Position numbers and translations under genes: made by a program. The notes beneath the pieces were generated by a model. It did not search any database. It saw only the letters and a program-made list of their open reading frames with translations, and was not told where the DNA came from. This document shows positions 3,513 through 28,118 of a stretch of DNA of 29,524 bases, piece by piece (position 1 is the stretch's first letter; every line of letters starts with the position of its first letter). This stretch comes from a virus, in the IMG/VR virus record IMGVR_UViG_3300020420_000047, positions 1 to 29,524 of that record; one strand, written 5' to 3'.

Positions 3513-5327
3513 TTAAAATATCTCCGAATTGTATTCATTAGTTTGATAACCTCTACCTTTTTCGTAGGTTAAAACATCTTGCTCTACTAACTTTCTAAGC
3601 CATGTTTTGACTGTAGAATCATTTAGATTAGTAATCTTAGTTATCTCTGCCTGTCCTAACCATACTGATGCAGGTTCGGTAGCTTTATCTTGTGCAGTTT
3701 TAATCGCATCTACTATAGCTTGTCCTTTATCGGATATTTTTGTTTTCTTTGGCATTTCTCCAACATCTATAAGTTCTAATGCACCAGATGTCATATCATG
3801 AAATGGTAATTTTTGTTCTACAAATTTAAAGTTCTTTGGCATTACAGGCTTACCATCTTTGACTAATGTTTGACTAAATTCAACAAACATATCGCTACCC
3901 AAATTAGTTCTAGCAACTCGATATTCCCAATCTACAGATGCCTGTATAACAGAACTACCTCTAGCACGACTATTACTTGAATGACCTGTGTGATGCACAA
4001 TGCAAATGCAAGTAGAATATGAGTCTCTTAAATCATCTATCCTCTCAATAAATGCTGACATATCTTCAGTAGAATTTTCATTACCAGCACCAAAGTTTCT
4101 TTGTAAAGTATCAACCACAATCATTCTAACTTTACCTGTTTCATCTTGTGTTCTATCTATTGTATCTTTTAACAATTGATGATCTTTATCATCTAATAAT
4201 CTTGCACCTCTGGTTGATATTAATAATGGTGCATCTTTTACTCTAGTAGCATTTAACTGTTGCCATGCTAAGAACCTTCTGGATATTGCTCTCATGCCTT
4301 CACCAGCTAGATAAACAACAGAACCCTGCTCAGTCGAATGTCCGTGCCAATCACGACCTAAAACAATATTACAAGCCAAATCTACTGTGACAAACGATTT
4401 ACCACTTTTAGGTTGCCCAAAAATCGCTACAACAGAATCTTCTTCACATATATCTTTAACAACCCAAACAGGTGGAGTTATATTCTGCATGATGTCATTA
4501 ACCTGAATCAAATCAAAAGAAACCCTTTTCTTTATTTGATTGTTCAAACAATAATCTAAAAACTGCTGTGATGATGAAAAGAAATCATTTACTTTGGCAT
4601 CATATAAATCATCTTTGTCTTTAAATTCTCTTGGTGGTTTTACAATGATTACTTCTTTTGCTATCTGACCAAGTTTGTCTTTTAGTTCTTCAGAACATTT
4701 TTTACCAGCTTCATCATTATCAGGAAAAATAATAACCCTTCTGTCTTTCAAAGGTGTCCAATCCTGTTTGTCTAAATTATTTACACCACCATGCCATGTG
4801 CAAGTATCACCATCATAAATACTTTTACAACCTAACAATGCTTTCTCACCTTCATTGATGATTACATAATCTTCAGGTTTATTGCTTTCACAATATATCG
4901 GCAAAATACCATCAGGTCTTTTCATAACCCATTTATCTTCAACTTTGTTAAATGGTGCATACTTCTGCTTGATGTAATGGTCTGCTGGAAATCTCATAAC
5001 ACAAAATGAATCTGTATATCTAAGATAAACAATTGACTCAGTTTTGAGTTGATACATATCTTTGTCTGTAAATAATCTGGCAGGTTTAGTAGATTTGACA
5101 GGCTCGTAACCTTTTAAGAAATCATTGGGATCTAAACCATTATTTTTAATAAATTCTATTAGTCCATAACCTTGATTATTTTCAAAATCAAAAAATGTAC
5201 CTTGTTCTAAATTTAATGCCAGACTACCTTTACTTCCCCAACGATAGTATGAGCCATCTTTTTTTGATGGCTCACCTAATATTTGGACTGCGACTTCAGG
5301 TGCAATCTTTTCCCATTCTAAATCCAA
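3513..5327 (-). CDS. Primase-helicase (TOPRIM plus RecA-like ATPase)
   Basis: 604-residue replication protein likely to unwind DNA and lay primers at the fork. Domains in order: an N-terminal region with a primase-like fold but no zinc-binding cysteines (1-75); a TOPRIM domain with NEGEKA (158-163) and FPDNDEAG (201-208); a RepA/AAA_25-type ATPase with Walker A GQPKSGKS (304-311), Walker B MIVVDT (402-407) and the HHTGH motif (445-449); and a C-terminal winged-helix-like tail (about 555-595). The start is a TTG nine bases after the SSB-like gene's stop codon. No ATG is possible there because an in-frame TGA lies just upstream, so coupled translation is likely. It is the only large replication gene; no DNA polymerase was found. 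Confidence 0.88.
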   Translation of the reverse strand: MDLEWEKIAPEVAVQILGEPSKKDGSYYRWGSKGSLALNLEQGTFFDFENNQGYGLIEFIKNNGLDPNDFLKGYEPVKSTKPARLFTDKDMYQLKTESIVYLRYTDSFCVMRFPADHYIKQKYAPFNKVEDKWVMKRPDGILPIYCESNKPEDYVIINEGEKALLGCKSIYDGDTCTWHGGVNNLDKQDWTPLKDRRVIIFPDNDEAGKKCSEELKDKLGQIAKEVIIVKPPREFKDKDDLYDAKVNDFFSSSQQFLDYCLNNQIKKRVSFDLIQVNDIMQNITPPVWVVKDICEEDSVVAIFGQPKSGKSFVTVDLACNIVLGRDWHGHSTEQGSVVYLAGEGMRAISRRFLAWQQLNATRVKDAPLLISTRGARLLDDKDHQLLKDTIDRTQDETGKVRMIVVDTLQRNFGAGNENSTEDMSAFIERIDDLRDSYSTCICIVHHTGHSSNSRARGSSVIQASVDWEYRVARTNLGSDMFVEFSQTLVKDGKPVMPKNFKFVEQKLPFHDMTSGALELIDVGEMPKKTKISDKGQAIVDAIKTAQDKATEPASVWLGQAEITKITNLNDSTVKTWLRKLVEQDVLTYEKGRGYQTNEYNSEIF

Positions 5328-5335
5328 ATTGCAAC

Positions 5336-5971
5336 CTAAAAAGGAATTTCATCATCCTCAAAAGCGTTAAAATTTTTAGCTTCATCTTGGGTGTCACCAC
5401 CTGACTTGGGGAGAAAATCATGTTGTTGATTATCAGATGGTGACTCGTTATACCAATCAGGTACAACAAATTCTGTAGGTCTATCTTTCATTCCAACAAA
5501 TTCAAAATGCGGAATAGAAGTGCTACCTTTACCGATTGAAATGCTTTCTGAACCTGTATATTTTACTACAGGTAATTTACCTGCGTTTTCTGGTTTCTGT
5601 GTTTCTGCAAAGAAACTAGCACCCATTTCTTGAAAGCCTTTATATTCTCCAAATGAGTGTCTTTGCCACAATGATACAGGGTGAGTTATGTTATCCTTAT
5701 CATTTACAAATTTTGGTAATACCCAAACTGAAAAGGCTTTTTTGTATTCATCATCAGGTCTGGCCATATGTGTAAACAAATCTTTTTGCCATACATAACT
5801 ATAACCTTCACCAGAAGTATATTTTCCCCAACCCATCAACATGGTGTCAGGATCAATCATAAAATAATTTACATCGATACTTTCTTTACCACGATACCAA
5901 CACTTTTCTTGAAAATGATGTTTTAAGTAAGGCGTATCTTCTGAATCAAAAATAAATGGATTGTCTGTCAT
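5336..5971 (-). CDS. Probable single-stranded DNA-binding protein
   Basis: 211 residues. The C-terminus is acidic and ends DDEIPF, the terminal peptide by which bacterial SSB proteins recruit partners. A low-complexity linker (about 165-200, rich in S, D, N and Q) precedes it, as in SSBs. The N-terminal 160 residues are rich in aromatic residues (WYRGK, MGWGKY, YSYVWQ, SVWVLP) suited to stacking on ssDNA, but they do not show a standard SSB OB-fold signature that I can recognise. The ATG overlaps the upstream stop as ATGA. It lies directly before the primase-helicase, consistent with replication. It might also serve recombination with the YqaJ-like nuclease. Confidence 0.72.
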   Translation of the reverse strand: MTDNPFIFDSEDTPYLKHHFQEKCWYRGKESIDVNYFMIDPDTMLMGWGKYTSGEGYSYVWQKDLFTHMARPDDEYKKAFSVWVLPKFVNDKDNITHPVSLWQRHSFGEYKGFQEMGASFFAETQKPENAGKLPVVKYTGSESISIGKGSTSIPHFEFVGMKDRPTEFVVPDWYNESPSDNQQHDFLPKSGGDTQDEAKNFNAFEDDEIPF

Positions 5972-7242: not shown

Positions 7243-7472
7243 TGAAAGAAGATCATAAAATGCAAAACTCATGGGAAGCCATGAGTAAGGCAAGGACAGC
7301 AAAATATAAAGCCTATAAAAAAGATGTCATGCCAATTATCAAGGAGATACAAGCATCAGGTGTTAAATCTTTACAAGGTATCGCTGATGCTTTGTCAGAT
7401 AGAAAAATAAAAACCAGATATGGCAAAGATATTTGGCATCCCTCACAAGTTAAGAATTTATTAGAACGATGA
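7242..7472 (+). CDS. Small HTH protein resembling a recombinase C-terminal domain
   Basis: 76 residues. The segment PIIKEIQASGVKSLQGIADA, then LSDRKIKTRYGKDIW and HPSQVKNLLER, matches the helix-turn-helix 'recombinase' module that follows the catalytic domain of large serine recombinases (pattern G-x-S-L-x-x-I-A ... T-x-x-G-x-x-W ... V). The catalytic domain is absent, so it is probably a stand-alone DNA-binding protein, not a recombinase. Start may be 7242 or the Met at 7260. It could be the regulator of the AATAGTTGTAA operators, but this is only a guess from position. Its last seven codons were copied in the downstream methyltransferase duplication. Confidence 0.7.
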   Translation: MKEDHKMQNSWEAMSKARTAKYKAYKKDVMPIIKEIQASGVKSLQGIADALSDRKIKTRYGKDIWHPSQVKNLLER

Positions 7473-7499
7473 TTCCATTTCCAGATAAGAAATACAATA
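7451..7499 (+). repeat. Duplicated junction, copy 1 (gene end plus methyltransferase start)
   Basis: A 49-base block that spans the last codons of the HTH gene and the first 10 codons of the first methyltransferase. It matches 8000-8048 at 45 of 49 bases. The part upstream of the ATG is nearly identical although it codes only in this copy. Confidence 0.85.
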
Positions 7500-7999
7500 C
7501 TATTGTAATTGACCCACCTTACGATATATCTATGTCAGGCAAAGTCAAAAAAAGACCTAATAAAAAAGAAAAATTAGATTATCCAACGATGTCTCTAAAA
7601 GAAATACAAAATTTACCAATACAAGATTTATGTAATGTTGGTTGTCATGTCTATACTTGGACTACCAATAAAATGCTTCCATATACTTTTGATATTTTAA
7701 AGTCTTGGGATATAAATTATCATCTAACTATGGTTTGGACAAAACCTGCTGGGATAGCACCGTGTATGGGGTATGTGTTTGGTACAGAATTTTGCTTACT
7801 CGGTTTTGCTGGAAAACCAATGCAAAAATTTAAAAACATAGGTAAGTTGAATTGGTTTCATCATCAAAGTATAAAACCACACTCTACAAAACCACAGTCT
7901 TTTTTTAATTTAGTTGAAGAAATGTCACCTAGTAATTATTTAGAAATGTTTGCACGAAAAAAAAGAGATGGTTGGGATGTATGGGGTAATGAAATTTAA
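7469..7999 (+). CDS. MT-A70-type DNA adenine methyltransferase, copy 1 (DPPY)
   Basis: 176 residues. Motif IV is DPPY at residues 15-18, the catalytic loop of N6-adenine methyltransferases, within the MT-A70 fold (YPTMSLKEIQNLPIQ, VYTWTTNKM, MVWTKP). The C-terminal motif EMFARKKRDGWDVWGNEI binds the SAM cofactor in relatives. It probably modifies phage DNA to escape host restriction. It starts with an ATG overlapping the preceding stop (cgATGA) and has no strong Shine-Dalgarno. It is a paralogue of the next gene: both begin MIPFP and KKYN and end GWDVWGNEI, yet the middles have diverged strongly. Confidence 0.88.
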   Translation: MIPFPDKKYNTIVIDPPYDISMSGKVKKRPNKKEKLDYPTMSLKEIQNLPIQDLCNVGCHVYTWTTNKMLPYTFDILKSWDINYHLTMVWTKPAGIAPCMGYVFGTEFCLLGFAGKPMQKFKNIGKLNWFHHQSIKPHSTKPQSFFNLVEEMSPSNYLEMFARKKRDGWDVWGNEI

Positions 8000-8048
8000 T
8001 AAGAATTTATTAGAGCGATGATTCCTTTCCCAAATAAGAAATACAATA
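8000..8048 (+). repeat. Duplicated junction, copy 2 (relic of upstream gene end)
   Basis: Second copy of the 49-base block at 7451-7499. The bases before the ATG at 8018 (taagaatttattagagcg) are a non-coding relic of the HTH gene's 3' end, which shows that the duplicated unit began inside that gene. Confidence 0.85.
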
Positions 8049-8554
8049 TTATCTATGCTGATCCAGCTTGGTCTTACAAAGATAAGGCAAGTGCTGGACA
8101 GCGTGGTGCAAGTTTCAAATATCCAACACAATCACAAGATTGGATCTGTAATTTACCTGTTGCTGATATTTCTGCCGATGATTGTGTTTTGTTTTTATGG
8201 ATCACTATGCCTAAATTAAATGAAGTTATGGAAGTTATTGATGCTTGGAATTTTGAATACAAAACTTGTGCTTTCACTTGGATAAAAAAAAATAAGATAA
8301 AACCTACTTGGTTTATGGGCATGGGAAGGTGGACAAGGGCAAATGCAGAATTATGTTTGTTAGCCACAAAAGGAAAACCACAAAGAATAAATGCTGGTGT
8401 GCATAGCGTTGTAGATACACCGATTGAAAGACATTCAAAGAAGCCTGATTGTGTGAGAGATAGGATTGTTGAACTGTGTGGAGATTTACCAAGAATAGAA
8501 TTATTTGCAAGAGAGAAAACCGAAGGTTGGGATGTTTGGGGAAATGAAATCTAA
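8018..8554 (+). CDS. MT-A70-type DNA adenine methyltransferase, copy 2 (DPAW)
   Basis: 178 residues. The catalytic motif is DPAW (15-18), closer than copy 1 to the DPPW of MT-A70 enzymes, followed by SYKDKASAGQRGASFKYPT, which is typical of phage and prophage MT-A70 proteins. Further conserved blocks are LFLWITMPKL, FTWIKKNK and RANAELCLLATKG, and the C-terminal LFAREKTEGWDVWGNEI. Probably an anti-restriction methyltransferase with a target different from copy 1. It ends over the start of the next gene. Confidence 0.9.
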   Translation: MIPFPNKKYNIIYADPAWSYKDKASAGQRGASFKYPTQSQDWICNLPVADISADDCVLFLWITMPKLNEVMEVIDAWNFEYKTCAFTWIKKNKIKPTWFMGMGRWTRANAELCLLATKGKPQRINAGVHSVVDTPIERHSKKPDCVRDRIVELCGDLPRIELFAREKTEGWDVWGNEI

Positions 8555-12999: not shown

Positions 13000-14129
13000 T
13001 ATTTACTCTCTAATTCTTTTATTTTTGCTGATAAATCTTTAACAGCTTCAATTAATACCGCAGTTATTCTGCTGTAATCCACAGACTTAGTACCCATTTC
13101 ATCATCAGCAATCAATACAATTTCTGGTAAAATCTTTTCAACTTCTTGGGCAATAACTCCAATATTTTCTTTACCATCCCTTATATAAGTTACACCTCTT
13201 AGTTGTTCAACTTTAGCCAAACCATGTTCAAGTGTTTCTATATTATCTTTTAATCTTTCATCTGAGAAAGCGGTGACATTATCATTAAAAGTTGCTGCAC
13301 CTGCTTCGGAAATATCAAGGGTAAGGGCAGTTATAAGTGACGAGCCATCAGTACCTTGAAATTTTATATCTTTATCTGCTACACCAGCTTGAATCACAAA
13401 ATCGCTAGAACTATTAGTAAATCCACCAAAAGTAGTGCCACCATCTTTTAAATTTATATCACCTCCGTCTGCATCAAGATTTATATCACCAGAAACATCT
13501 AAAGTTAAATCTCCTGTCCTTGTAATACTAGAGCCACCGACATCAATAGATCCATTAAAAATAGCATTCCCTGCTTCTGACATATCTAAGGTTAATGCAC
13601 TTATAACCCCACCACCATCATCACCTTTAAAAATTATGTCTTTATCTTGTACTTTAGACTCTATGACAAAATCAGAAGATGAATTTACAAAATCTCCTAT
13701 AGTAGTACCACCATCTTTAAATGTTACATTACCACCATCAGCATCAAGAATGATGTCACCAGCAGAATCAATTGTTAAATCACCACTAGATAAATCTATT
13801 TCTGTTCCATCAATGGTTATGTTATCAACAGTAACACCGCCATCAGCATCTAATATACCTGTGGTCGTTAAGTTTCCGTTGACTGTCAAAGCACCTGATG
13901 TTTCATTACTTGCCGTGATTGATAAAGGTAAAGTAATCCAAGCATTGTTTGCAGAATTTCTTAATTTCAAAACATTAGCAGAAGTATCAATCCACCATTC
14001 ATAAGCAAATGTAGTAGACGGTTCTGATGAACCTGAGTTGTTAGATACAATGGCATCTAAAGCATTGTTTAAATCTGCCCTAAAATTTGCACCTGTTTGG
14101 TTTGCTATATCATAATCGTGTTGTGCCAT
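12999..14129 (-). CDS. Tail fibre with C-terminal S74 intramolecular chaperone
   Basis: 376 residues. The N-terminal 75 residues probably attach it to the tail (NFRADLNNALDAIVSN, YEWWIDTSANVLKLRN). Two 90-residue repeats (about 116-205 and 206-285) form the shaft. From residue 288 the sequence FSDERLKDNIETLEHGLAKV ... VIAQEVEKILPEIV ... YSRITAVLIEAVKDL is the Peptidase_S74 chaperone, which helps trimers fold and then cuts itself off before the conserved Ser (here Ser289 of SDERLK). The C-terminus ends in a coiled coil. The start has an AGAGG ribosome site. High confidence in the S74 domain. Confidence 0.9.
   Translation of the reverse strand: MAQHDYDIANQTGANFRADLNNALDAIVSNNSGSSEPSTTFAYEWWIDTSANVLKLRNSANNAWITLPLSITASNETSGALTVNGNLTTTGILDADGGVTVDNITIDGTEIDLSSGDLTIDSAGDIILDADGGNVTFKDGGTTIGDFVNSSSDFVIESKVQDKDIIFKGDDGGGVISALTLDMSEAGNAIFNGSIDVGGSSITRTGDLTLDVSGDINLDADGGDINLKDGGTTFGGFTNSSSDFVIQAGVADKDIKFQGTDGSSLITALTLDISEAGAATFNDNVTAFSDERLKDNIETLEHGLAKVEQLRGVTYIRDGKENIGVIAQEVEKILPEIVLIADDEMGTKSVDYSRITAVLIEAVKDLSAKIKELESK
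13245..13784 (-). repeat. Two in-frame 270-bp repeats in fibre gene
   Basis: Encodes residues 116-205 and 206-295 of the fibre; the unit begins GDLT and includes DADGG, KDGGTT and SSSDFVI at the same offset of exactly 90 residues in both copies. The similarity fades near the end of the second unit, where the S74 domain begins. Suggests a segmental duplication of the fibre shaft. Confidence 0.8.
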
Positions 14130-23914: not shown

Positions 23915-26626
23915 TTAACTTGCGTTACAGAATGATACTGCGTGTCTTACAGCAACATCAACTGATTGCAATGCAACCACTCTTACTGTACCAGAAGTAC
24001 TATTAGTAAAAGGATCCACAACTATATCAAGACCGCCAAAGAAACCTATTAATAGGTCATTGAAGTTTCCAAATACATAGTTGTTTGCAGTTAATTGATT
24101 TGATACCACTACAGGATAACCATTAACCTGATTGTTCTCCGCAACAAATAAACCACTACCAGAATCTTTAGCAGTTGTTTTCAAAGTTCCAAAGTTTGTA
24201 GGGTTAATGATGTAAGCTAAATCGCCTACTAAAGCATTATCTACAGCTACAGCAGTTTCAATAGATACCATTTCTGCAAAAGTTGGTGCAGCAGCACTAC
24301 TTAAAGAAACAGTATTGATACCTGAAGTGTTAGTGATACCTGTCGGATTTCCACTTGAGCCACTACCTTCTAAAGCACCATCATCAATTGCAATTGCCAT
24401 TGATTTTGCTAGATCGTCACGAACTAAATTTTCAACATCTAAAGATGATTGAAGCATAAGCTGACGAGTTATATCAGTATGCACTCCTAAAGTCTTAGGT
24501 GTCATGGTTACAGAACCAATTACCATTTCAGACTCACCTGATGCACCACCTTCTGAACTAATAAATGCAGCAGAAGCAGCAGATGTTTTCTTAGGGATTT
24601 TTACATCACCTGATAGTCCATTTAGATTTGTAGCTAATGGCATTACAGCAGATGAATTTCTAAGTACATCAATAAAACTTTCAGGTCTAAAGTCTTGCCC
24701 TATAAGTCCAGCATCATCGGAAGCATTTAAATCTCTTGTGTTCCAATTAGCCATTACTTCAGGCGGTAACATTATACCTTGTGCAGTTCTGCCATAGTGT
24801 TTTGATGCTTCTTCTGAACATTCAAATTCAAATTCTGCATCCCTTTGTGCTTTTCTGTCAGTAGGATTTGCTAAAGCATTTATTGCTTTCATAATCGAAA
24901 ACTGACGGACTTGCTTTTTACTCATGCCAATTTCAGCAGTTTCTAAAGGTTTGTCAGTTGCTATATTTTCTAACAAAATACCTCTAAATTCTTCTACTGA
25001 GTTGCCATCTTGAATTGCCTTGTCAGCTAAATCTCTTCTGTTGTGTCTAACAGCTAAATCCATAATTTCTTTAGAATTTCTTACGAATTCGGCTTTAGCT
25101 TCAGCAACAGATTGTTCTCTAACTTCATCAAGGTTTATTTCATTTTTAACTTCTTCAGTCATTGTCATTACCTTTATGGTTGTTTGTTTATCTTTAGAAC
25201 GACCCACTCCTACTTGCATAGAAGCGTCTGCTGGTACAGAAACAATTGACACCTCTAATGGTGTCGTTTTCACTCTGTACACAGGCTTATCATCTTCCAT
25301 TTCCCTCATTCGTTCCATGCCATTTATTTTGTAGCCAACGCTGATATTTTGACGAATACCATCTTTGACATCTTGAAATATTTCTTCTGCCAATTCGCCT
25401 CGACCAAAGCGAACTATTGCCTTTGCACTTTTTTCAGAAGAATTTATTTCATACCTTTCGACCACTCCAATTTGTTTTGTCATGTCATGGTCAAGTAATA
25501 AAGGACTTCTGCCACTACCAATAAAACTAGCGTCAATGTCCTCTTCAGAATGTGAGATTATCTCCATGCCAAAATCTCTTTCAACAGGTTCTTCGGAACT
25601 GACTCCGATTCTCACTCTTCTGTTTTCTTCATCGATGTGTGATGCTCTTGAAAGGTCTAGAGTTCGATAGACAATATCGGACTTATCTAGTCTTTCTTCT
25701 TCATCTTCATCTTTTTCTTCATCATGGTATGGACGAGATTCCATCATTTCTTTGTCCTCATCTTCCATACTTTCCATCATACCCTCATGCTTCGCAAATG
25801 ATACAACATAAGTATCATCTGTTTCTTCCACATTAAGGATATGTCTATTTTCTTTATATTCCATAGATTTATCCTCTTTGTTTTTGGTTGATAAAGGGTG
25901 TCCTTCAGGAAGCAAATCTTGGTCATGTTTGCCACCCTGAAATCTTCCATTCCGCAAAGCGAAAAGGAAACTGTTTACTCTCGCATACGCCCATTGTTCA
26001 GCAGAACCAACATTAGGTCTTACTGAAGCAGGATTGGTTTTGTATGCACCAATACCTCTTTCAAAGACTGCGAGTAATGTTCTATAAGTTGTTCTTTTGG
26101 TTGTTGCATTTCCTACTTCTTCATTATGTTCTTCAACCTTTTTTTTCAATCCTTTTTCGACAGCATCAGAAACTTGTCTGTCTTGTTGTGCTTGACTAGC
26201 TGAACCAGATTCTTTTTGTTCTACATATTTGATAGCTTCTAAAACTACATCTTTCATTCTTTGTTCACCCAATGTTCCTATAACTCCCCACTTCATTTGT
26301 GCTATAACACCTGCAATATTTGATGGTCTGGCTTTTTTTTCACCAGATTTAAATTGGCTACCATCTTCAAAATGTCTTGCAACCCATGCTTCTCTTTCTT
26401 TAATCCAAGAAAGCACTCCTTCTGTTTCTTCGCCGTTTCTTGCTTTAGTCCATAAATTGAATGCTTCATTACCTCTAATGTTGCCACCAGCTTTGTAAAT
26501 ATCTGGGTCATTTTCTTTGACACCAGCAATGAAACCATAATCAAATTGTGGATAATTTGAATTTCGTAAAGAAATTTTTTTATCTTCACCTTTGGTTGGG
26601 AAATCAGTCAGATCGTGTTTACTCAT
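23915..26626 (-). CDS. N-module, prohead protease and HK97-type major capsid protein in one ORF
   Basis: 903 residues in a single frame. Residues 1-140 (ISLRNSNYPQFDYGF, WIKEREAWVARHFEDGSQ) and about 155-245 (TTYRTLLAVFERGIGAYKTN, QWAYARVNSFLFALRNGRFQ) are two modules known to me from phage head genes. An acidic, probably disordered linker follows (280-312). Residues 315-480 are the HK97-type protease, with likely catalytic His380 in LLLDHD and Ser429 in NISVGY. Residues 490-580 look like a scaffold-like delta domain and 620-903 like the HK97 capsid fold. The ATG at 26626 has AAGGTGG upstream; a TTG nine codons earlier overlaps portal. Two internal ATGs with ribosome sites lie at domain borders. 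Confidence 0.87.
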   Translation of the reverse strand: MSKHDLTDFPTKGEDKKISLRNSNYPQFDYGFIAGVKENDPDIYKAGGNIRGNEAFNLWTKARNGEETEGVLSWIKEREAWVARHFEDGSQFKSGEKKARPSNIAGVIAQMKWGVIGTLGEQRMKDVVLEAIKYVEQKESGSASQAQQDRQVSDAVEKGLKKKVEEHNEEVGNATTKRTTYRTLLAVFERGIGAYKTNPASVRPNVGSAEQWAYARVNSFLFALRNGRFQGGKHDQDLLPEGHPLSTKNKEDKSMEYKENRHILNVEETDDTYVVSFAKHEGMMESMEDEDKEMMESRPYHDEEKDEDEEERLDKSDIVYRTLDLSRASHIDEENRRVRIGVSSEEPVERDFGMEIISHSEEDIDASFIGSGRSPLLLDHDMTKQIGVVERYEINSSEKSAKAIVRFGRGELAEEIFQDVKDGIRQNISVGYKINGMERMREMEDDKPVYRVKTTPLEVSIVSVPADASMQVGVGRSKDKQTTIKVMTMTEEVKNEINLDEVREQSVAEAKAEFVRNSKEIMDLAVRHNRRDLADKAIQDGNSVEEFRGILLENIATDKPLETAEIGMSKKQVRQFSIMKAINALANPTDRKAQRDAEFEFECSEEASKHYGRTAQGIMLPPEVMANWNTRDLNASDDAGLIGQDFRPESFIDVLRNSSAVMPLATNLNGLSGDVKIPKKTSAASAAFISSEGGASGESEMVIGSVTMTPKTLGVHTDITRQLMLQSSLDVENLVRDDLAKSMAIAIDDGALEGSGSSGNPTGITNTSGINTVSLSSAAAPTFAEMVSIETAVAVDNALVGDLAYIINPTNFGTLKTTAKDSGSGLFVAENNQVNGYPVVVSNQLTANNYVFGNFNDLLIGFFGGLDIVVDPFTNSTSGTVRVVALQSVDVAVRHAVSFCNAS
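25160..25175 (-). promoter_or_regulatory. Internal ribosome site and start before the capsid domain
   Basis: AAAGG (25171-25175) lies eight bases before ATG (25160-25162), in frame, opening the product MTEEVKNEINLDEVREQ. It falls exactly between the protease and delta/capsid domains, so a free capsid protein of about 415 residues could be made from it. Confidence 0.5.
25862..25878 (-). promoter_or_regulatory. Internal ribosome site and start before the protease domain
   Basis: AAGAGG (25873-25878) lies eight bases before ATG (25862-25864), in frame, opening MEYKENRHILNVEETDD. It lies at the border of the N-module and the linker plus protease, so a product without the N-module is possible. 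Confidence 0.48.
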
Positions 26627-28118
26627 CGTTCCCACCTTGAATATCAGCTTCAACAGGTATTTTCATACCAAAAGGTTGGAATGCTGTTTTAACACCATAT
26701 TGTTCTGCCAACTTTTGTTCTCTTTCATGTTGTTCAAATAACTCCTCAACATCCCTACCATAGTTTGCTTGAACATCTTGAAATGTTACTAGACCTGACT
26801 GCATACCACTTATTGAAGCCATCATTTCTTTTTGTGGGTCTACCCATGAAAAACTTCTTGGTATAAAGTTTGCTGAATTAGCAAACTTATCGTATCTGCT
26901 CATTGGCAAAGGTTGGTTGGTACTTGGAGATGTTGAGATAGCACCACTTGATATTGACATCTCTAACCATTTTTCAAAAACAGGTCTAACGAAATGGTCA
27001 ATGGTAAATCTTTGATATAGTCTGTACATTTCTCTATCTTCTAAAGCACCTGCCCTTAATGAACTGTAATTTACTGAACTTAGGTCATTTGTTAAAGCGT
27101 GATAAGAAATGTTTAAACCAGAAGCAATGCTTCTTAAAACCTGAGTGCTAAATGATTCAAAAGCTGATGTTGGGTGGTCAGGATCAAAAGCCTTGAAATC
27201 CATACCTGCTGGTAGTTGCTCAAATGTTCCAGCTTCAGCGTTCATTATTGGAACATATTCTTCATCTTCGCCATCACCCACATAGCCATCACCATCAGGA
27301 GAAACAAAGAAACCCATCTTACTTGCCGATACTCTTGCAGAAACTATTTCAGCTTCTAAATAACCATTTAATAATTTTATGTTTGCCATCGCTGACGAAG
27401 TAAATGGTACACCTCTATTTTGTTCAGGTCTGTTAGGTATGTAAGCATGAATCATTTCATCTGCATTGACTCTGATGTGTTTTTGATTTGCATAGAATTG
27501 ATTATCAAATGGGTGATTAGCAAAAAGATGGTAGGCAACAGGTTTGTTTTTTGCATTTAATTCAACTCCCATTTTAATTTTATTACCGCCCTTTTCTGCA
27601 TTGTCATTTTTAGTTTCGTCTAAATGGTCTGCTTCCAAAAACTCTATCTGATAACCAAACTCTGAATCTCTCGATTTGACATGACGAACTAACACTTCAC
27701 CATCCCTTGCTAAAGATTCAATAAATAATTTTTGACAGTCTATAAATGTCAATCTGCCATTGGTTGTACAATTACCCAACCTACACCATTGATGCCATTT
27801 TTGTTCAATAATTCTATTTGCTACTAAATCCAAACTGCCATCATCGTTTCTTGCTTTCATTGATAAACGAATACCATTGTTGCCAACAACATTTGATTGC
27901 ATAAGATTTAAATATCTTTGCACATAACTATCGTTTCTGGCCAAATCCCTTGATCTATCTCTAAGCAGTCTGAGATTAGTTTTTATTTCTTCATCAGCAG
28001 ATGTAGAAGTTTGTAAAAAATCAGAAAACAATCTGCCTGTACTTGCACCATTGTATTTTCTTAAATTTAATGTTTTTCTTCTTTTTGGTTTTCTTGTAAA
28101 TCTATCGTACCAAGCCAT
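26619..28118 (-). CDS. Portal protein (lambda gpB family)
   Basis: 499 residues. Blocks of the Phage_portal_2 (lambda) family are present: RDLARNDSYVQRYLNLMQSN, VVGNNGIRLSMKAR, SLARDGEVLVRHV, YQIEFLEADHLDE, GVPFTSSAMANIKLLNGYLE and LNISYHALTNDLSSVNYSS. It forms the dodecameric ring through which DNA enters and leaves. The start overlaps the connector stop as tgATGG; the end overlaps the capsid-fusion start by eight bases. Confidence 0.92.
   Translation of the reverse strand: MAWYDRFTRKPKRRKTLNLRKYNGASTGRLFSDFLQTSTSADEEIKTNLRLLRDRSRDLARNDSYVQRYLNLMQSNVVGNNGIRLSMKARNDDGSLDLVANRIIEQKWHQWCRLGNCTTNGRLTFIDCQKLFIESLARDGEVLVRHVKSRDSEFGYQIEFLEADHLDETKNDNAEKGGNKIKMGVELNAKNKPVAYHLFANHPFDNQFYANQKHIRVNADEMIHAYIPNRPEQNRGVPFTSSAMANIKLLNGYLEAEIVSARVSASKMGFFVSPDGDGYVGDGEDEEYVPIMNAEAGTFEQLPAGMDFKAFDPDHPTSAFESFSTQVLRSIASGLNISYHALTNDLSSVNYSSLRAGALEDREMYRLYQRFTIDHFVRPVFEKWLEMSISSGAISTSPSTNQPLPMSRYDKFANSANFIPRSFSWVDPQKEMMASISGMQSGLVTFQDVQANYGRDVEELFEQHEREQKLAEQYGVKTAFQPFGMKIPVEADIQGGNDE

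Follow-up and report, generated by a model that had tools for sequence, protein, structure and literature searches.

How does a phage that encodes its prohead protease and its capsid protein as a single polypeptide deal with protease dosage? Such a fused gene poses a problem, namely one protease for each subunit of the shell. We examined this question in a 29,524-nt stretch of marine phage DNA (IMG/VR record IMGVR_UViG_3300020420_000047, hereafter the window), where one gene may resolve it through in-frame starts nested at its module borders.

A three-module fusion gene next to the portal

The gene is a single 903-aa frame (99.6 kDa) whose ATG lies inside the last codons of the upstream portal gene (Table 1). 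The original prediction was that this frame joins an N-terminal head module, a prohead protease and an HK97-type capsid, here N, P and C (C being aa 489-903). Domain matches bear out this architecture: Peptidase_S78 at aa 374-474 (34.4 bits, cut-off 21), Phage_capsid at aa 644-899 (132 bits, cut-off 24.2) and phrog_617 across aa 320-900 (E 3e-137). The predicted catalytic residues of the protease, His380 (LLLDHD) and Ser429 (NISVGY), are present in 104/104 and 103/103 of the homologues covering each position.

The name "head module" for aa 1-254 fared less well. It is backed by a weak match to DUF5824 at ~aa 176-223 (25.3 bits against a cut-off of 25, with N searched alone) and by predicted viral structures. 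The structural model of N (mean pLDDT 78.3, pTM 0.54) matched uncharacterised or protease-linked viral models only (XkdF, a prohead protease and a ChaB-named protein), and a PDB structure search with it returned nothing at E<=0.001. N is similar to regions of other phage prohead-protease proteins and is absent from some fusions.

Some homologues carry an inserted domain of ~128 aa in which His, Cys, His and Met residues are conserved (THALRF ... YYYCVNHSGMGG). The insert follows window-equivalent aa 149 in L021, L061 and L062 and aa 284 in L120, placing it in the N module in one case and at the start of P in the other, and it therefore seems mobile. Judged by eye it looks like a cupredoxin (blue-copper) domain; a Pfam search of the insert gave no match. 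Elsewhere in the window (7469-8554), two neighbouring genes both belong to the MT-A70 family (adenine methyltransferase type).

Table 1. Features of the fusion gene and its surroundings in the window
Feature	Coordinates	Strand	Remarks
Portal gene (Phage_portal_2), upstream of the fusion gene	26619..28118	-	Overlaps the fusion gene start by 8 nt
Complete fused ORF, N-P-C	23915..26626	-	903 aa, 99.6 kDa
N module, aa 1-254	25865..26626	-	Mostly helical; weak DUF5824 match
Prohead protease module (P), S78 type, aa 255-488	25163..25864	-	His380 and Ser429 conserved
Putative delta/scaffold region, ~aa 489-637	24716..25162	-	Boundary inferred from 8gta alignment; removal at maturation expected
Mature HK97-type capsid region, ~aa 638-903	23918..24715	-	Phage_capsid match; 8gta alignment
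Candidate internal start 1 (N|P border)	25862..25877	-	AAAGAGG-ATAAATCT-ATG; ATG at 25864; 8-nt spacer
Candidate internal start 2 (P|C border)	25160..25175	-	AAAGG-TAATGACA-ATG; ATG at 25162; 8-nt spacer

Candidate internal starts at the module borders

Two in-frame ATGs fall at the borders between modules, each exactly 8 nt downstream of a Shine-Dalgarno (SD)-like motif, as originally described and as the sequence confirms. Initiation at the first would yield a protease-capsid product of 649 aa (71.2 kDa) and at the second a capsid-only product of 415 aa (44.3 kDa). AAGAGG-N5-9-ATG occurs 5 times in the window against 1.1 expected, and three of the remaining instances precede predicted genes, which start at 14129, 20175 and 22690; the motif therefore serves as an SD in this genome. 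The AAAGG-N6-10-ATG pattern is at chance level (8 found, 8.8 expected), and other in-frame ATGs of the fusion gene, for example at aa 284-295, match or beat both border ATGs in score; we therefore dropped any judgement of the SD-ATG motifs from the window taken by itself. A putative start-site signal rises above chance only through conservation in homologues. Predicted SD energies in this genome are -7.2 kcal/mol for the full-length start, -5.8 for the second start and -3.4 for the capsid-only start; as the latter is the weakest, SD strength alone does not predict the capsid-only form as the main product. Local folding of the RNA close to the border ATGs is weaker than near other ATGs.

Conservation of the border sites across fusions

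Two scans of IMG/VR yielded 148 loci. In 133 of these a single frame covers N, P and C, usually beside a portal gene. Split versions of the gene were sought among these homologues and none was established (138 loci have N and P in one frame, 133 all three modules). When 106 distinct proteins were aligned, the linkers varied in sequence and length, and a Met was kept at the start of P and of C. An ATG lies at most 60 codons after the protease PAD motif in 96/96 testable homologues. We scored conservation over 24 clusters at 80% identity (23 N|P and 22 P|C borders). The frequencies of G at -10/-9 are 0.78/0.78 at N|P and 0.95/0.95 at P|C, compared with 0.12/0.40 for a background of 484 other in-frame ATGs. 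Position -10 is a codon third position, for which the expected G was derived from the whole-gene codon usage of each gene. G is found there at 18/23 N|P borders against 5.7 expected (P=6e-9) and at 21/22 P|C borders against 6.4 expected (P=1e-12), P values that are indicative, since they treat as independent clusters of homologues that are not phylogenetically so. The original prediction had staked itself on conservation of the SD/ATG pairs among homologous fusions, and this check did not refute it: the pairs at both borders are conserved across the 24 clusters at the nucleotide level.

The P|C site extends to distant relatives. It is kept in fusions that do not have this N module, such as those of Escherichia phage ep3 and Pseudomonas phages Persinger and PPpW-3, and also in Rhodobacter phage RcCronus, Dinoroseobacter phage R4C, Halomonas phiHAP-1, Vibrio VP882 and others; in Escherichia phage vB_EcoM-ep3 it reads GAGG-ATTCACGA-ATG. 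The sites of Mano and FoX2 are weak, and Synechococcus phages L156, L158 and L159 keep the P|C Met with the SD absent. In S-CBS3, an SD-ATG is present at the start of P. Relatives with 61-67% identity are found on contigs titled Flavobacteriaceae, Sphingobacteriales and SAR86 (L174, L175 and L177); as these titles disagree for so similar a gene, the assemblies may simply include contigs of phage origin.

We quantified this conservation in two further sets. In a viral set of 39 clusters, which partly overlaps the first set through recurring contigs and is thus not fully independent of it, G at -10 was found in 33 cases against 15.0 expected at P|C (P=2e-11) and in 10/12 against 3.2 at N|P (P=3e-5). 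Position -7 was also enriched in G in this set (P=0.01 and 0.0008), as expected for sites with GGAG as the motif. The second set comprised 80 prophage loci from diverse hosts, in which a blind rule assigned the P|C site to whichever ATG came first downstream of the protease PAD motif. Here G at -10 was found in 50 loci against 29.5 expected (P=6e-8), mean SD energy was -5.3 against -2.0 at other ATGs, and energies of -4.5 or lower were reached by 70% of the sites against 16% of other ATGs. The excess of G held upon clustering at 60% identity (33 against 18.5, P=2e-6) and 50% identity (18 against 11.2, P=0.002); at the strictest clustering, 45%, the third-position signal is weak (9 against 5.4, P=0.03) and the energy difference persists.

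Since P|C conservation is both stronger and far broader, the gene might make two products rather than three, with a functional start at P|C and an N|P motif that is secondary or restricted to some lineages. Consistent with this, the SD at N|P is weak or absent in 4/23 representatives (L120, L121, L125 and L129, -2.0 to -0.2), and at this border L143 lacks both the start codon and the SD. We consider this reading improbable, though the best placed of the alternatives, given the third-position G at N|P in both the 24-cluster and the partly overlapping viral sets and given L118, where GTG replaces ATG at N|P behind an intact SD of the same kind and spacing. Roseobacter phages CRP-821 and CRP-406 also argue against it: like CRP-811, they have a different N-terminal region (phrog_2859), and in both of them P begins at an SD-ATG. 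The N-terminal region of CRP-811 (L150 2326-3130), possibly a further module, carries a Tudor-like domain (PF11160), with several SD-ATG candidates upstream of P. In CRP-823 (L152 2767-5695), an extra T relative to CRP-821 (TTT to TTTT) breaks the frame and sets N apart from P-C, which is suggestive of a natural separation and may be a sequencing error.

The module borders coincide with gene borders elsewhere, as would be the case if the motifs were relics of the ribosome-binding sites of formerly separate genes, with no present function. Salinibacter phages keep the capsid in a gene of its own, directly after one that holds N and a protease-like region, and lambda has a free-standing capsid gene E. 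The Salinibacter split, which falls at the same border, also counts in favour of the nested reading. The Salinibacter protease-like region is our own reading from YGHG, GLSTG and EVSITPQP motifs; a family search of it matched no family. A relic would decay, so that the retention of the third-position G and the start codon in homologues down to ~35% identity, across widely diverged linkers, makes this reading very improbable.

We give equally little credence to a constraint on the protein, such as a Glu/Lys-rich linker or a protease cleavage site, that would yield the motif indirectly. The linkers contain much Glu, Lys and Arg, residues with SD-like codons, and recoded sequences retain about half of the SD energy. 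Yet the codon at -12..-10 may specify K, E, T, Q, L or R and its third base is almost always G, so the constraint is on the nucleotide; in the 24-cluster set, G is not significantly over-represented at third positions -1, -4, -7 and -13. Recoding with the protein held fixed also weakens the SD at both borders (z=7.0 at P|C and 3.5 at N|P, against -4.2 at other Mets). Finally, internal SD sequences in general have been suggested to make ribosomes pause, and pause sites aiding domain folding would suit a location at domain borders, but pausing needs no start codon at a fixed spacing and leaves the ATG-to-GTG exchange and the weaker local RNA structure unexplained, so we regard it as just as poor a candidate.

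Probable nested products and comparison with known head genes

Altogether, nested translation within the fusion gene is strongly supported by these patterns of conservation, and the gene is very probably a translationally nested head gene with three in-frame starts and three products. We infer that ribosomes would start on one mRNA at 26626 (99.6 kDa), 25864 (71 kDa) and 25162 (44 kDa), so that one gene would probably supply numerous capsid subunits without protease and a smaller number with it. The three products would share the capsid domain and could thereby co-assemble, and the minority longer forms (P-C and N-P-C) would supply the procapsid with protease and, in the case of N-P-C, with the N module. 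Once inside, the protease would remove the delta region and itself, converting every precursor into an identical mature subunit, and the purpose of the arrangement would be to limit the number of protease copies per head.

The solved mature capsid chain of phage R4C (8gta) fits this scheme. Its sequence is identical to that of R4C gene product residues 362-629, and the internal Met of this product is residue 189, so that the mature chain starts 173 residues later and all precursors could converge on one mature subunit. Alignment with 8gta places the mature capsid start of the window gene near aa 638; the protease-free precursor would thus consist of a ~150-aa delta/scaffold region followed by the mature capsid, as in HK97 gp5. 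Because precursors could converge in this way, mass spectrometry of mature virions would discriminate poorly between them.

The closest precedent in principle is lambda C/Nu3, in which an in-frame internal start in the head-protease gene gives a protease-free partner; in the lambda record, nu3 (5132-5737) ends together with C (4418-5737) in the same frame. The window gene has the corresponding features, in-frame SD-ATG pairs at module borders that are conserved at the nucleotide level in homologues. Lambda differs in keeping its capsid gene, E, apart from this pair, whose common C-terminal portion consists solely of scaffold; the products of the window gene would have the capsid itself in common. 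The lambda protease is moreover annotated as S49 family, while the window gene encodes an S78-type protease and has two candidate internal starts. Herpesvirus UL26/UL26.5 also comprises nested protease-bearing and protease-free head proteins with a common C-terminus, but these arise from separate nested transcripts and carry scaffold rather than capsid protein.

With an S78-type protease and an HK97-type capsid in one frame, the window gene shares module order and homologous sequence with the phrog_617 / NF045541 fusions, from which its additional N module sets it apart. It scores 133.3 bits against NCBIfam NF045541 ("prohead protease/major capsid protein fusion protein"), below the cut-off of 525, and thus belongs to the wider protease-capsid fusion kind, outside the named family. 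The phrog_617 / NF045541 records examined annotate one protein and no internal start. In HK97, gp4 and gp5 are separate adjacent genes for the protease and a capsid precursor bearing a delta domain; the capsid-only product would resemble gp5, and HK97 capsid structures are among the matches of the window capsid.

Genes of the Gifsy-2 type likewise combine protease, scaffold and capsid with an SD-ATG at a border. In 12/12 clusters (L172 22471-24561, L255-L334) GAGGA + 9 nt + ATG stands between protease and scaffold, evidence that is weaker because the residues around the site are also conserved. Their protease is ClpP-like and unrelated to that of the window gene, which matches Peptidase_S78 and is thus not of this type. 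Pseudomonas phage MD8 gp5 is described as such a ClpP-scaffold-capsid fusion in a single gene, and the passages on the fusion do not mention an internal start (PMC8508860). We lean towards the view that protease-capsid fusions with unrelated protease families have repeatedly adopted an internal border start that sets the protease-to-capsid ratio, here in three tiers with the N module.

The protease-capsid fusion family is already known. In the literature, of which subscription papers were thinly covered, we came across no mention of internal starts for its members, and we provisionally regard these starts as a new observation. Nested starts would be a specific answer to the protease-dosage problem for a widespread phage family. 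They also suggest that records with one "major capsid protein" of ~600-900 aa may omit the true capsid precursor, with consequences for how genes are annotated, structures modelled, proteomics data searched and capsids engineered.
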